Of a stretch of DNA of 47,930 nt, positions 11,154-21,649 are shown in pieces. This DNA is from Nitriliruptoraceae bacterium (GTDB lineage Bacteria; Actinomycetota; Nitriliruptoria; Nitriliruptorales; Nitriliruptoraceae), in assembly GCA_020832455.1 (NCBI GenBank), contig JAFIEQ010000013.1:1-47930 (forward strand), read 5' to 3'. Within the stretch, counting starts at the first letter, position 1. Each line of letters starts with the position of its first letter. The position numbers were made by a program, and so were the translations under genes. Below the pieces are notes generated by a model. The model did no database searches, was not told the origin of the DNA, and was given only the letters and a program-made list of their open reading frames with translations.

Positions 11154-12095
11154 TCAGGGCATCGCCAGGCCGTGGGACACCCCGGTCAGTTCCTCGGTCG
11201 CCGTCCACAGCGCAGCGGCCAGCCCGGGGTCGCGAGCCGCGCTGGAGCGGTCGACCTCGGTGGGGAAGCCGCGCATCTGACCGGGCCCGTCCGGGCCCCA
11301 GTAGGACCCGCCGGGGACGTCGGGGGCGACGGTGGCGTAGAGCTGGGGCAGCACCCCCCGCGATGCCGGCTGCGCGATCACGCGGTTGCCCAGGCCCGAC
11401 AGCACCCCGGTCGCCCGGGATCGCAGCCCGCCGCCCATCGTCGGCCCGGTGGTCTGCAGGGCGGTGTTCGCGTAGCCCGGGTGCGCGGCGACGGCGATCG
11501 CGGTGTGGCCGCTGGCCTCCAAGCGGCGCTGCAGCTCCGCGGTGTACAGCAGGTTCGCGAGCTTCGAGCGGCCGTAGGCGGGCCAGCGCCGGTAGGTCGT
11601 GCGCTCCCAGTTGAGGTCCGCGAGGTCGATGCCCCCGATCCGGTGCGCACCGGAGGACACCACGACCACGGGCCCCTGTGCCTCGAGCACCGCGGGCAGC
11701 ACACCCGCCACGAAGGCGGCGTGGCCGAGGTGGTTCACCCCGAACTGCAGCTCGAACCCGTCGCGGGTCCGGGTGAGCGGGGGCGCCATGATCCCGGCGT
11801 TGGCGACGATCGCGTCGATCCGCCCGTGCCGGTCCAGCAGCGTCGCGGCAGCCGCGGCGACGCTGGTCAGGTCGGCGAGGTCGAGCGGCAGGTTCTCCAT
11901 CGAGGCCGCCGGCGTGCGGTGGTGGATGCGGTCCATGACCTCGGCGGTCTTGGTCGCGGAGCGGGTCGCGAGCACGACGTGGGCCCCGCGGGTCGCGAGC
12001 GCGATGGTGGTCGCCTCACCCAACCCGGAGCTGGCACCGGTGACCACGTAGGTGTGGCCGTGCAGGTCGGGGACGTCGTCGGCGGTCCAGGGCAT
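11154..12095 (-). CDS. SDR oxidoreductase of the retinol dehydrogenase/protochlorophyllide reductase-like class
   Basis: VVTGASSGLGEATTIALA, VANAGIMAPP, FGVNHLGHAAF, YGRSKLANLLYTAELQRRL. Confidence 0.85.
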   Translation of the reverse strand: MPWTADDVPDLHGHTYVVTGASSGLGEATTIALATRGAHVVLATRSATKTAEVMDRIHHRTPAASMENLPLDLADLTSVAAAAATLLDRHGRIDAIVANAGIMAPPLTRTRDGFELQFGVNHLGHAAFVAGVLPAVLEAQGPVVVVSSGAHRIGGIDLADLNWERTTYRRWPAYGRSKLANLLYTAELQRRLEASGHTAIAVAAHPGYANTALQTTGPTMGGGLRSRATGVLSGLGNRVIAQPASRGVLPQLYATVAPDVPGGSYWGPDGPGQMRGFPTEVDRSSAARDPGLAAALWTATEELTGVSHGLAMP

Positions 12096-12176
12096 GAGGT
12101 GGGCCTCGTCGGTCGGGATCGGTCGGGGTCGTTCGGGCCGGGTTCGGGTGCGCGCGACCCGCTGGTGCGGTACCCC

Positions 12177-12191
12177 CGACCATACGACCAT
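12177..12191. repeat. Short direct repeat CGACCAT-A-CGACCAT in the divergent heliorhodopsin/SDR intergenic region
   Basis: CGACCAT at 12177-12183 and 12185-12191. Confidence 0.6.
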
Positions 12192-12287
12192 CGAACGATC
12201 GCGAACACCGGGCGGCCACGCCGACGCGAACCGGGTGGTGCGACGTCGAGCGGGGTCCTCACCGGGCCTGCGCGGGAGGGACCGGAC

Positions 12288-13070
12288 ATGACCACGAGCA
12301 CGACCACGACCCCACCACGTGAGGTGCGCTACGCGCGGCTGCGCCGCTTCAACGTCGTCGTGGGGCTGCTGCACCTCGGCCAGGCGGTGGTCCTGCTCGC
12401 GCTGGCCAACGACCTCGCCCTGCCCGTGTTCGCGACGTTCCTCGAGGACGATCCGGTGGAGCAACAGGGGATCGGGACCCCGGAGCTGATCTTCGAGCTG
12501 CCGATCGCGGTGCTGGTCGCGATCTTCGTGCTGTTCGCGGCCGCCGACCACCTGCTGGTCGCCGCACCGCGGATCAAGGACTGGTACGAGCGCAAGCTCG
12601 ACGCCCGCGCCAACTACGCCCGCTGGATCGAGTACTCGGTCTCCTCGTCGATCATGATCGTGCTGATCGCGGCGTTCGTCGGGATCTGGGACCTGGCCGC
12701 GGTGGTGGCGATCTTCGCGGTGAACACCACCATGATCCTGTTCGGGCTGCTGTGGGAGCGCACGGTGACGCCGGGGCCCGGCGCCGACTGGTCGGCCTTC
12801 TGGTTCGGCACCTTCGCCGGCGCGGTGCCCTGGGCGATCCTGGGGTACTACCTGTTCGCGCCCGACGCGGACATCCCCGGCTTCGTCTACGCCATCTACG
12901 GGTTCCAGCTGGTGCTGTTCTGGTCGTTCGCGGCCAACATGGCCCTGCAGTACGCCCAGGTCGGGCGCTGGCGCGACTACATCTTCGGGGAGTACGCCTA
13001 CATCGTGCTCAGCCTGGCGGCGAAGACGCTGCTCGCCTGGCTGATCTTCGGCAACGTGCTGCGGAGCTGA
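12288..13070 (+). CDS. Heliorhodopsin
   Basis: 260 aa, 7-TM pattern; TM3 motif RWIEYSVSSSIMIVLIA; TM7 LSLAAKTLLAWLIFGN with Schiff-base Lys K246; E115 at the counterion position; H88 and S242 at expected positions. Confidence 0.93.
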   Translation: MTTSTTTTPPREVRYARLRRFNVVVGLLHLGQAVVLLALANDLALPVFATFLEDDPVEQQGIGTPELIFELPIAVLVAIFVLFAAADHLLVAAPRIKDWYERKLDARANYARWIEYSVSSSIMIVLIAAFVGIWDLAAVVAIFAVNTTMILFGLLWERTVTPGPGADWSAFWFGTFAGAVPWAILGYYLFAPDADIPGFVYAIYGFQLVLFWSFAANMALQYAQVGRWRDYIFGEYAYIVLSLAAKTLLAWLIFGNVLRS

Positions 13071-13179
13071 CCCGACGGCCCGCCGGCCGGGCTGCTCCGG
13101 TACCCCCTCGGTCGACCCCCGGCCGGTCCGGCGCGCATTAGCCTCGGGCGGGCAGCGTCCGCCGACCGAGGATCCGATC

Positions 13180-14028
13180 GTGGCCAACCCCGTCTACGCC
13201 TCGATCATCGGCGCGTGCATCACCTCGTTCCAGCTGTTGCGCTGGAAGGTCGACGTCCAGGGCAGCCAGTACATCCCGCCGATCGGTGGGGCGGTGATCG
13301 CCACGAACCACGTCGGCTACCTCGACTTCGTGTTCTCCGGCTACGGGGTGCGCGAGCAGGGCAAGCGCCGGCTGCGATTCGTGGCCAAGCGCGAGGTGTT
13401 CGACCATCCGGTCACCGGTCCGCTGATGCGCGCCATGGGCCACGTGCCCGTCGACCGCGGCGGCAACACCGGCGCCGCGTTGGCCGAGGTCGCCCGCAAC
13501 CTGCAGGCCGGCGAGTTGGTCGGGATGTTCCCCGAGGGGACGATCTCCACCTCGTTCGTGCCGTTGGCCGGCCGTCCCGGCGCGGTCCGGATGGCGATGG
13601 ACGCGGAGGTCCCGCTGATCCCGGGCGCCGTCTGGGGGACCCAGCGCATCTTCACCAAGGGCCGCAAGGTGAGGCCGGCTGTGGGCACCCACATCACCGT
13701 GCGGTTCGGGCCGGCGGTCTCCTACCGCGCCGACGAGGACGCGATCGACGTCCACGAGCGGCTGATGGGTGCCATCGGTGCGCTGGTCGACGAGGCGCAG
13801 CGCACCTACCCACAGCGCCCCGAGGACGACGCGGACCGCTGGTGGTTGCCCGCCCACCTCGGCGGGACGGCGCCCACCCCGGACGAGGCGCGCCTCGTCG
13901 CCGAACAGGAGGCCGCGGAGCGTCGGGCCCGGCGTCGGGGATCGAGCGCGAGCGGCACGACGCCGTCGTCGAGCGCGGCCGCCGACGCCGACGATGCGGA
14001 CGACGCCGGGCCCTCGGCCCCCGCGTGA
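13180..14028 (+). CDS. 1-acyl-sn-glycerol-3-phosphate acyltransferase (PlsC-like)
   Basis: NHVGYLDFVF (HX4D-like), FPEGTIS; GTG start. Confidence 0.85.
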   Translation: MANPVYASIIGACITSFQLLRWKVDVQGSQYIPPIGGAVIATNHVGYLDFVFSGYGVREQGKRRLRFVAKREVFDHPVTGPLMRAMGHVPVDRGGNTGAALAEVARNLQAGELVGMFPEGTISTSFVPLAGRPGAVRMAMDAEVPLIPGAVWGTQRIFTKGRKVRPAVGTHITVRFGPAVSYRADEDAIDVHERLMGAIGALVDEAQRTYPQRPEDDADRWWLPAHLGGTAPTPDEARLVAEQEAAERRARRRGSSASGTTPSSSAAADADDADDAGPSAPA

Positions 14029-16464: not shown

Positions 16465-16740
16465 ATGGAGATGGAGTACGGCGACGAGGCCACGCGCCAG
16501 CTCCACCTCGAGGGCATCAGCTACGGGAAAGGCTTCGACAAGCAGGCGCTCATGCGACTGAATCGGATCAAGGCTGCCGTCGATCAGCGCGACCTCAGCG
16601 CCCTGAAGGGCAACCGGTTCGAGAAGCTCAGAGGCGACCGGGCAGGGAGCTACTCCATCCGCATCAACGACCAGTGGCGCATCACCTTTCGGATCGAGAA
16701 CAACCGGGCACTCGATGTGACCATCGAGGACTACCACTGA
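16465..16740 (+). CDS. higB: HigB/RelE-type mRNA interferase toxin
   Basis: GKGFDKQALMRLNRIKAAVDQRDLSALKGNRFEKLRGDRAGSYSIRINDQWRITFRIENN. Confidence 0.9.
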   Translation: MEMEYGDEATRQLHLEGISYGKGFDKQALMRLNRIKAAVDQRDLSALKGNRFEKLRGDRAGSYSIRINDQWRITFRIENNRALDVTIEDYH

Positions 16741-16753
16741 GAGGCGAACCACG

Positions 16754-17017
16754 ATGACGACGAAGGTGAGCTTGGCCATCCACCCGGGCGAGCACATCGC
16801 CGATGAACTCGCCGAGCGCGGCATGACCGCTGCCGCGCTTGCCGTGGCCATGGGTGTCGATGCCGGGCGCGTGTCACGGCTGGTCAACGCGCAGGTCTCC
16901 GTGACCGGGGACACGGCAATCCGGCTCGCGGATGCCTTCGGGACCTCCGCCGAGTTCTGGATGCGCCTCCAAGGCGACTACGACCTCGCCCGAGCACGTG
17001 AGGCGCGTGTCGCCTGA
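16754..17017 (+). CDS. higA: HigA-family antitoxin (XRE HTH)
   Basis: IHPGEHIADELAERGMTAAALAVAMGVDAGRVSRLVN...SAEFWMRLQGDYDLARA. Confidence 0.92.
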   Translation: MTTKVSLAIHPGEHIADELAERGMTAAALAVAMGVDAGRVSRLVNAQVSVTGDTAIRLADAFGTSAEFWMRLQGDYDLARAREARVA

Positions 17018-17225: not shown

Positions 17226-18713
17226 TCAGGCAGCGAGTTCGTCGAGATCGGTGATCGAGGCCAGCTCCCCGTCGAGGGTGAGCCGCAGCTCGTAGGAGCG
17301 TTCGCGCAGGTCGACGCGCAGCTCGGCCACCTCGTCGTCGTGGGTCCAGCGCATCGCGAGCTGACCCTGGTCGTGGCCCTCGTCGAGCAGCTCCCACGTA
17401 CCCGCGAACGCGGGGTGGGTGTTGCGCAGGCGGCAGGCAGCCAGCAGCCGCTGGACGACCGGCTTGCGCAGGGCCTGCTCGACCTCCTCGGCCGTGTAGT
17501 GGTGCCGGTTGATGTCCCGGCCGACCCCGGTGCGTTGCAGCAGTTCCACGTCGTTGTGCCCGGCGAGCAGCCCCACGTAGTAGATCTGCGGCACACCGGG
17601 CAGCCACAGTTGCAGCAGCCGGGCGATGAGGTAGTTGCGGCGGCTCGCGCCCAGCGCGTCGAAGAAGGTGCAGTTGACCTGGTAGAGGTCGACGTTGGAG
17701 GCGGCGGCGCCGGTCGCGAGCCGTGAGGTGTCGTGCGAGTGCTCGTGGATCCCCTCCACGAGCGCGTCGATCTCGTCCGCGTCGAGCAGGCCGAGGTGCG
17801 CCACGTCGGCGGTGTCCGGGCCGACGTCGATCACCCCGATGCCGTCGTGGGTGTCGAGGACCGTCACCGCGTTGCGCGGCCGGATCTGGCACCAGTGCCG
17901 CAGCCGTTCGGCGTTGCCGGTGTACAGCGCGTGCAGCACCAGCGGCGGCAGCGCGAAGTCGTACACGTGGTCGACGCGCGCGGCGATCTCCACCTGCCTG
18001 CGCCAGTAGCTGTGGACCTCGACCAGGATGGCGATGCCCCGCTCGTGGGCCCGGGCCGTGAGCTCGTCGATGAACGCGAAGGTCTCCTCGGTCATGAACG
18101 ACGAGGTCCCTGGCGTCTTGATCGCGTACCCGATGGCGTCGAGACGGACCACCTCGATGTTGTGGTCCCGGAAGCGGTCCAGGATGGAGTCGAGGTAGGC
18201 GACCCCCTCCGGCGAGCGCACGTCGATGTCGATCTGGTCGGTGGTGAACGTCGTCCACACGATGCGCCTGGAGCGGTCCGCGAGCTGCACCGGCGTCAGC
18301 GGCAGACCGGGCCGCGGCCGGTAGATCCGCGTGAGCAGGTCCTCGCTCGCGCCGTCGGGGAACACCCGGTCGAGGGTCAGGAACAGCCCCGCCCACGCGG
18401 AGTCCTCCCCGTGGGCGAGGAAGTCCTGGAACTGCGGCGAGGCGGACGAGATGTGGTTGACGATCAGGTCGGCCATGATCGGGGTGTGGGCCCCGAGCGC
18501 CTCCACGTCCGCCCAGGTCCCGAGCCGCGGGTCGACCGCCCGGTGATCGGCCGGATCGAAGCCCGCGTCGGCGCCATCGATCGGGTCGAAGAAGGGCAGG
18601 ACGTGCACGCCGCCGAAGGCCCCGGCGAGCGGACCCGCCAGCATCCGGTCCAGGCCGGGAAGGTCGCCGGCGAGGCGATCCGCGTAGGTGATGAGCTGGA
18701 CCTGGTTGCGCAC
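17226..18713 (-). CDS. GH13_18-type sugar phosphorylase (sucrose phosphorylase-like)
   Basis: [74 protein letters not shown] start inferred. Confidence 0.86.
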
Positions 18714-18793
18714 GCTGGAGCCGTCCACGGTCGTCGCACGGGTGAGGGCGTCGTGCGAGCCTAGGCGCGGGATCGTGGCACTAGCCTCCGAGC

Positions 18794-19249
18794 ATGCCCG
18801 ATCCGCACCCACTCAGCTCCGCCGCCGCGTCGAGCGCCGCGTCGACGACGATCGACGTGCGCTTCTACGAGCTCGACCCCTACGGCCACGTGAACCACGG
18901 CGTCTACCTCAACTACTTCGAGGTGGCCCGGATCGAACTGCTCGATGCGATCGGGTTCGGCCTGCCCCGGCTCGGGGCGCTGGGGTTCCACCTCGTGGTG
19001 GTGGAGGCCAGGGTGCGCTTCCACGCACCCGCCCACGCGGGCGACCGGTTGACGGTGACCAGCCGCCTGCGCTCGTTGCGGCGTACCTCGGCGGTGTGGG
19101 ACCAGACCCTCGACCGCGCCGGGACCGTGATCGCCACCAACGAGGTGCGCTCGGGCATCACCGACACCACGGGACGCCCCACCGCCGCCCCACCCGAGCT
19201 GCTGGAGGCGTTGGCGCCGTTCCGCATCGACGACGACAGGACCAGCTGA
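18794..19249 (+). CDS. Acyl-CoA thioesterase (hotdog fold, YbgC/4HBT-like)
   Basis: [29 protein letters not shown]. Confidence 0.85.
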
Positions 19250-20143: not shown

Positions 20144-21649
20144 ATGGCCACGCTCAGCGGTCTGGACCTCGAGCGGCCGCCACGCTTCGGTCCGGCGCGG
20201 TGGGTGGTGGCGATCCTCGCCGCGCTGCTCATCGGCTTCTGCTGGCTGCAGATCCTCGACCTCGACGGGATCGAGGTCGCGCAGGTGGACGCCGACGGGG
20301 TGCCGGTGACCCTGCTCGTCCCGCCGGAGGCCGACGGGCAGGGCGTGGTCGTCGCCCACGGGTTCGCGGGTTCGGCCACGCTGATGCGATCGACCGCGCT
20401 GGCGATGGCCCGCCAGGGGCTGGTGGTCGCGGTCCCCGACCTGTCGGGGCACGGGGCCAACCCGACCCCGCTGGCGCGTGACGACGACGGTGCGCAGCAT
20501 ACCGCCGACGTCCTCGCCGCCCTCGACGTCCTCGCCGCCCAGCCCGACGTCGACGCCGATCGGCTGGGCGTGCTCGGGCACTCGATGGGATCCGGCGCCG
20601 TCCTGCGCGCCGGGATCGAGGCCCCGGAACGCATCGCTGCGGTCGTCGCGGTGTCACCGACGGACGCACCGGTGACCGCGGAGCTGCCCGAGAACCTGCT
20701 CCTGCTGGCTGGGGAGCTCGAGGGACCCTTCGTGGCCAACGCCGAGCGCCTGCTGGCGGCCGCCGGCGGCCCCTCGGACGACCTCGCGGCGGCGCGCCAA
20801 CAGGGGCAGGCGCGCGAGCTGACCCTGATCCGCGGGGTCGAGCACCTGTCGATCCTGTTCAGCCCGACCATGCACGACGAGGCGGCCCGGTGGCTCACCA
20901 CCCCCGACGGCGCGGTCGGGACCGACACCCGTGAGGCACCCGTCGCACCGATCGCCTGGTGGCTCGTGCACCTGCTGGCCGTGCTCGCCCTCTGGCGCGC
21001 CCTGGCGCCCGTGCTCGCCGAGCGGGTGCTGCTGGGGGGCCACCGGGGGCAGCCGGTGGTTGGGCTGCTGGCCGGCACCGTCGCGAGCACCGTGGTCCTC
21101 GCGATCGTGGGAACGGTGGTACCGCTGGACGGCGTCCTCGGGATGCTCATCGGACCGGCCTTCGTGTGCTGGCTCGCACTGGCCGGAGTGGTCTGGCTGC
21201 GGATCGGGCACCGTCCCGGCCCTCCCGGCGCCCGTGACCTCGTCTGGGGGGCGGTGGCGCTCGGTGTCCTGGTCGCGGCCTTCGGGGCGCTCGCCCCGCA
21301 GGTGTGGCTGCCGTGGTTCCCCAGCGGGGCGCGGGTCCTGATCGCCGTGGTCGCGGCCGCGGCCCTGCTGCCCTGGGCCGTGGCCTGGGCCGCGACCGTG
21401 CACGACCGTCGGGGGCTCGCCGGGTTCGGCTGGTGGGTCCTGATCGGGCTGGTCGTCACCGTCGGGGTCACGGTCGCTGCCGGCGTGGTCGAGGGCCTGG
21501 GGTTCCTGACGCTGATCGCGCCGACCATCCCGGCGGTGCTGGGCCTGGTCCAGCTCGTCACCGCGCCGTTGCGGCGACCCTGGGCCGCGGCGATCGCCCT
21601 GGCGGGGTTCCTGGGCTGGACCGTCGCGGTGCTCTTCCCCCTGGGCTAG
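20144..21649 (+). CDS. Alpha/beta hydrolase fused to a C-terminal polytopic membrane domain
   Basis: N-terminal TM; VVVAHGFAGSATLM, VLGHSMGSGAVLRAG, then several TM helices from about residue 265. Confidence 0.78.
   Translation: MATLSGLDLERPPRFGPARWVVAILAALLIGFCWLQILDLDGIEVAQVDADGVPVTLLVPPEADGQGVVVAHGFAGSATLMRSTALAMARQGLVVAVPDLSGHGANPTPLARDDDGAQHTADVLAALDVLAAQPDVDADRLGVLGHSMGSGAVLRAGIEAPERIAAVVAVSPTDAPVTAELPENLLLLAGELEGPFVANAERLLAAAGGPSDDLAAARQQGQARELTLIRGVEHLSILFSPTMHDEAARWLTTPDGAVGTDTREAPVAPIAWWLVHLLAVLALWRALAPVLAERVLLGGHRGQPVVGLLAGTVASTVVLAIVGTVVPLDGVLGMLIGPAFVCWLALAGVVWLRIGHRPGPPGARDLVWGAVALGVLVAAFGALAPQVWLPWFPSGARVLIAVVAAAALLPWAVAWAATVHDRRGLAGFGWWVLIGLVVTVGVTVAAGVVEGLGFLTLIAPTIPAVLGLVQLVTAPLRRPWAAAIALAGFLGWTVAVLFPLG

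Follow-up and report, generated by a model that had tools for sequence, protein, structure and literature searches.

The window considered here is a stretch of 47,930 nucleotides from a Nitriliruptoraceae bacterium, in which an open reading frame (ORF) of 260 codons with an ATG start is flanked on the left by genes for a glcD-type FAD oxidase (− strand), a branched-chain aminotransferase (+ strand) and an SDR oxidoreductase (− strand), and on the right by genes for a PlsC-type acyltransferase and a SpoU methyltransferase, both on the + strand (Table 1). Elsewhere in the window are two genes, the first for a HigB-like toxin and the next for a Cro/C1-type HTH antitoxin-like protein (16465-17017, + strand), likely a type II toxin-antitoxin pair, and a sucrose phosphorylase gene (17226-18812, − strand; TIGR03852, 419 bits, above cut-off). 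The sole Pfam match of the ORF was PF18761 (heliorhodopsin; 298.6 bits, E 3.8e-89, cut-off 26.7 bits), the NCBIfam heliorhodopsin equivalog NF038020 scored 284.5 bits against a cut-off of 100, and the best PDB sequences found by phmmer were 48C12 (6su3, E 1.5e-55), a Thermoplasmatales heliorhodopsin and one further heliorhodopsin. No match to PF01036 was obtained, which places the protein outside the type-1 microbial rhodopsins as Pfam defines them. By all sequence tests applied, the ORF encodes a heliorhodopsin (HeR). A previous sequence-only reading of this DNA had named an HeR gene at this position in a genome of actinobacterial type and had proposed comparing HeR and type-1 profiles; that comparison bears it out, the TM3 and TM7 peptides it quoted are found in the translation, and the nearest titled relatives of the protein belong to Nitriliruptoraceae MAGs. 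Because codon differences from an 82%-identical relative pile up at third positions (84, versus 35 at first and 29 at second positions), the gene appears to be under purifying selection, and on this codon pattern we regard it as intact and selected.

Table 1. Position of HeR, its functional residues and its neighbors in the window, and of the two other rhodopsin genes of the same genome (G000).
Feature	Position	Strand	Remarks
SDR oxidoreductase (PRK06197 subfamily), left neighbor	11154..12095	-	NF004846 322 bits, cut-off 268
SDR-PlsC interval holding HeR	12096..13179	+	1084 bp
GGGAGGG, ribosome-binding-like stretch	12274..12280	+	7 nt 5' of HeR ATG
Heliorhodopsin (HeR), 260 aa, 7 TM	12288..13070	+	PF18761, NF038020, phmmer to 48C12 6su3
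H29 (48C12 H23)	12372..12374	+	H in 113/125 sequences
H88 (48C12 H80)	12549..12551	+	H in 114/125 sequences
E115, Schiff-base counterion position (48C12 E107)	12630..12632	+	Invariant, 125 sequences
S242 (48C12 S237), Ser of SxxxK motif	13011..13013	+	Invariant, 125 sequences
K246, retinal Schiff-base lysine (48C12 K241)	13023..13025	+	Invariant, 125 sequences
PlsC-type acyltransferase, right neighbor	13180..14028	+	PF01553 107.7 bits
Type-1 rhodopsin, DTE motif (by eye)	G000:C3:20823-21473 (L171:5668-6513)	+	Best PDB matches xanthorhodopsin-like
Type-1 rhodopsin, NDQ (sodium-pump) motif (by eye)	G000:C113:14896-15606 (L172:5798-6670)	+	PDB matches sodium-/chloride-pumping rhodopsins

The Glu counterion, E115, is present in helix 3, and helix 7 carries the SxxxK motif with the retinal lysine, S242-K246. 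The 48C12 equivalents that the sequence-only reading had given for E115, K246, H88 and S242 proved right in the alignment, where H29 is a further match beyond these four residues (Table 1). If the N terminus is cytoplasmic, the loops, with limits set by hand, hold 13 K/R inside versus 1 outside, and because of this positive-inside charge distribution an inverted topology with the N terminus in the cytoplasm is predicted. The AlphaFold model consists of seven long helices, with a mean pLDDT of only 65.9. The ten best PDB fold matches of the model were all heliorhodopsins, and its global packing is poor (TM of ~0.49 to 48C12). As for color, mutants described in PMC7807009 concern two color-tuning positions of natural HeRs, Q213 and A240 of 48C12, which correspond to M218 and A245 in the window protein; read against those mutants, these two residues lead us to expect an absorption maximum of roughly 535-550 nm, in the green.

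The closest solved relative is 48C12 (PDB 6su3, 6su4, 6uh3), with ~44% full-length identity. The two proteins have in common the Schiff-base Lys, the counterion Glu, the His pair and the SxxxK motif, whereas M218, L208 and W212 stand in place of Q213, F203 and N207 of 48C12, the GPPG stretch in loop 1 of 48C12 is DDPV in the window protein, and the surroundings of the two genes are unlike each other. TaHeR, from a Thermoplasmatales archaeon (PDB 6is6, 7u55), agrees in fold and in retinal-site residues, but is archaeal and only 34% identical. Much closer are the HeRs of Nitriliruptoraceae MAGs (L002-L008), with 69-82% identity, which occupy differing genomic sites except among the closest kin; around the window protein there is a well-supported family-level clade of 14 members. 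The isolate names of the nearest titled relatives start with CSSed and T1Sed, which suggest soda-lake sediment.

An HeR match was found in 35 of the 66 genomes of the class, with an apparently intact gene in 34 of these, and in 108 of the 396 genomes sampled across the phylum. Because HeR is this common (34/66 intact in the class; 108/396 in the phylum) and its distribution has already been surveyed (PMC8612252), the window protein is an ordinary representative of an established family. No HeR was found in viral contigs and phages, and plasmids yielded two matches, both under 50% identity. A separate observation concerns G049, a 61%-complete assembly with three HeR genes (C311, C347 and C438) from two distant clades of the tree.

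Relatives were searched for orthologs of the genes on either side of HeR, and the surroundings of these orthologs were read. The SDR and PlsC-type genes are direct neighbors without HeR in a genome of the same genus (G048) and in G061 and G039, with gaps of ~260, 133 and 102 bp, respectively, versus 1084 bp in the window; in G040 the aminotransferase and PlsC-type genes adjoin, with neither SDR nor HeR between them. No HeR remnant was detectable in the corresponding intervals of these four genomes, all of which carry HeR at other sites. Judging from these empty sites, HeR most likely entered as a single gene between the SDR and plsC-type genes. Neither end of the insertion could be placed, because the intergenic DNA gave no alignment above shuffled controls, and no promoter or flank in common with other HeR loci emerged.

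The history of the HeR gene also differs from that of its surroundings. Between the window and G061 the HeRs are 82% identical and the concatenated neighboring proteins 65%, whereas between the window and the same-genus G048 the values are 69% and 75.5%, respectively. In a tree of 125 HeRs, the window protein groups with those of G036, G061, G062 and G065 (100/91) and not with that of G048, which groups with G039 (100/95), and the HeRs of the family fall in several separate places. Because of this tree and the identity contrasts, the window HeR was most likely acquired horizontally, within the family; in a small tree of neighboring genes the fork of the window stays open, with no grouping with G048 resolved. 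The alternative is an ancestral HeR at the window site that the relatives later lost, in place of an insertion. Such loss is real, as G062 has a decayed HeR scar where the copy of G048 is intact, but we consider this alternative unlikely for the window, whose site holds no detectable remnant in any of G048, G061, G039 and G040, and whose HeR identity pattern contradicts vertical descent.

Turnover of HeR is evident at other loci as well. At the position of the HeR of G048, the flanks in G062 retain 87-89% DNA identity with only short HeR fragments between them (L210; G062:C88, about 20416-20640), and the intact HeR of G062 lies on a different contig. A terminator-like inverted repeat, GTGCTCCGGTC...GACCGGAGCAC, spans the HeR stop codon in G048 (L045:7900-8060) and is kept in the G062 scar. 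G047 carries a broken copy only (L076; G047:C1:1725526-1725901), which gives partial matches, is interrupted by a TAG in frame and is split close to its 3' end.

The genome of the window (G000; assembly 93.08% complete) encodes three rhodopsins, HeR and two type-1 rhodopsins matching PF01036 (Table 1). The sequence-only reading had left the source of retinal open, and this holds genome-wide: searches for phytoene synthase (PSY), CrtI, Blh/Brp and an RPE65-type oxygenase gave no match in the 93%-complete G000. Relatives including G048 have a Blh-CrtI-PSY-cyclase-like cluster, in which CrtI and the cyclase are named by their position and size, and a single cluster could possibly be missing from G000 at this level of completeness. 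Within the class, Blh/Brp (PF15461) tracks type-1 rhodopsins and not HeR, being present in 11 of the 23 genomes with a type-1 rhodopsin versus 0 of the 43 without (p-value: 1.3e-6, kin included), so that all 11 Blh/Brp genomes carry PF01036. HeR is the only rhodopsin in 13 class genomes (the one-contig G040 among them), where Blh/Brp occurs in 0/13 and an RPE65-type gene in 4/13, and of the 108 HeR genomes in the sample of the phylum only 8 have a Blh/Brp match, as judged by one Pfam model. This dissociation between HeR and the known retinal enzyme is new here.

The lack of any match to these four kinds of gene in G000 raises the alternative that the opsin is made but stays mostly without retinal in this organism. 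We think this quite improbable: the assembly may lack a cluster of the kind seen in the same-genus G048, the retention of three intact rhodopsin genes speaks for a supply of retinal, and Aurantimicrobium minutum has a functional rhodopsin and retinal without the known genes (PMC7734400).

Regulated partners have been reported for several HeRs, namely glutamine synthetase for AbHeR, photolyase for TfHeR and an ABC transporter for OcHeR (PMC9529153, PMC9769723, PMC11109279); the reported partner of AbHeR sits in the same operon, and the work on OcHeR was guided by HeR neighbors. By analogy with these enzymes and transporters, proposed as partners of the HeRs they adjoin, the window HeR might regulate the protein of an adjacent gene, either the divergent SDR or the downstream PlsC-type acyltransferase. 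The ten neighbor groups listed for co-transcribed HeRs include SDR and alpha/beta hydrolase (PMC11109279), and SDR genes directly adjoin several HeRs in our set, including that of G025. Nevertheless, such regulation appears very unlikely, as the SDR gene of the window is divergent from HeR and not co-transcribed with it, and the SDR-PlsC pair occurs without HeR in three relatives whose HeRs lie elsewhere. When Pfam counts for immediate HeR neighbors were compared with those for control genes three or more away, SDR genes showed no significant enrichment (8/189 versus 2/101; p-value: 0.50). The SDR had initially appealed to us through its PRK06197 subfamily, which presumably resembles retinol dehydrogenases, and it was rejected both as a partner and as a retinal-handling enzyme, given that it adjoins PlsC without HeR in relatives and that SDR genes are not enriched beside HeR. 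The alpha/beta hydrolase found downstream of HeR in 9/99 cases versus 2/101 controls (p-value: 0.03, uncorrected, kin included) was set aside as irrelevant to the window, whose alpha/beta hydrolase lies further off. HTH-cupin genes were also seen upstream of HeR in 10 loci, kin included. Because SDR and PlsC adjoin without HeR in relatives, the genes adjacent to the window HeR are most likely not its partners, and in this the window HeR differs from AbHeR and OcHeR. Its lack of conserved neighbors argues against a local partner and gives no proof of a distant one. The evidence from empty sites against partnership with neighbors is new here.

Same-strand neighbors within 60 bp are few across the 125 HeR loci (7/106 downstream and 8/99 upstream, with our own gene caller), and HeR neighborhoods vary even among close orthologs in the family; for these two reasons we read the gene as a stand-alone unit. 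The interpretation that we regard as probable is that it encodes a functional HeR, a green-absorbing photosensor that stands alone and acts in trans, and that it was horizontally acquired and inserted alone. All-trans retinal, taken up or made by an unrecognized route, would be bound at K246 and isomerized by green light (~535-550 nm), and a slow photocycle without pumping would then alter the cytoplasmic face of the protein, the change being passed to a cytoplasmic partner that would be encoded elsewhere in the genome. That the protein is instead a light-driven ion transporter, a proton channel or pump, has a precedent in the viral V2HeR3, which transports protons (PMC9448325), but seems very unlikely for a protein with residues of the bacterial 48C12 type in a genome that already holds two pump-type type-1 rhodopsins.

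Studies of what HeR does have relied on its gene neighbors. In this group adjacency by itself is no evidence of partnership, because in close relatives the two flanking genes lie side by side with no HeR between them. Where HeR obtains its retinal can also be tested in this class, with 13 HeR-only genomes without Blh/Brp set against 11 Blh/Brp genomes that all have a type-1 rhodopsin. More broadly, we tentatively suggest, as a view that is plausible though somewhat short of probable, that HeR in this class may be a portable one-gene photosensor, gained, lost and regained at varied sites independently of its neighbors and of the known retinal enzyme, and that HeR-only bacteria would then either scavenge retinal or depend on a retinal-forming enzyme yet to be described.
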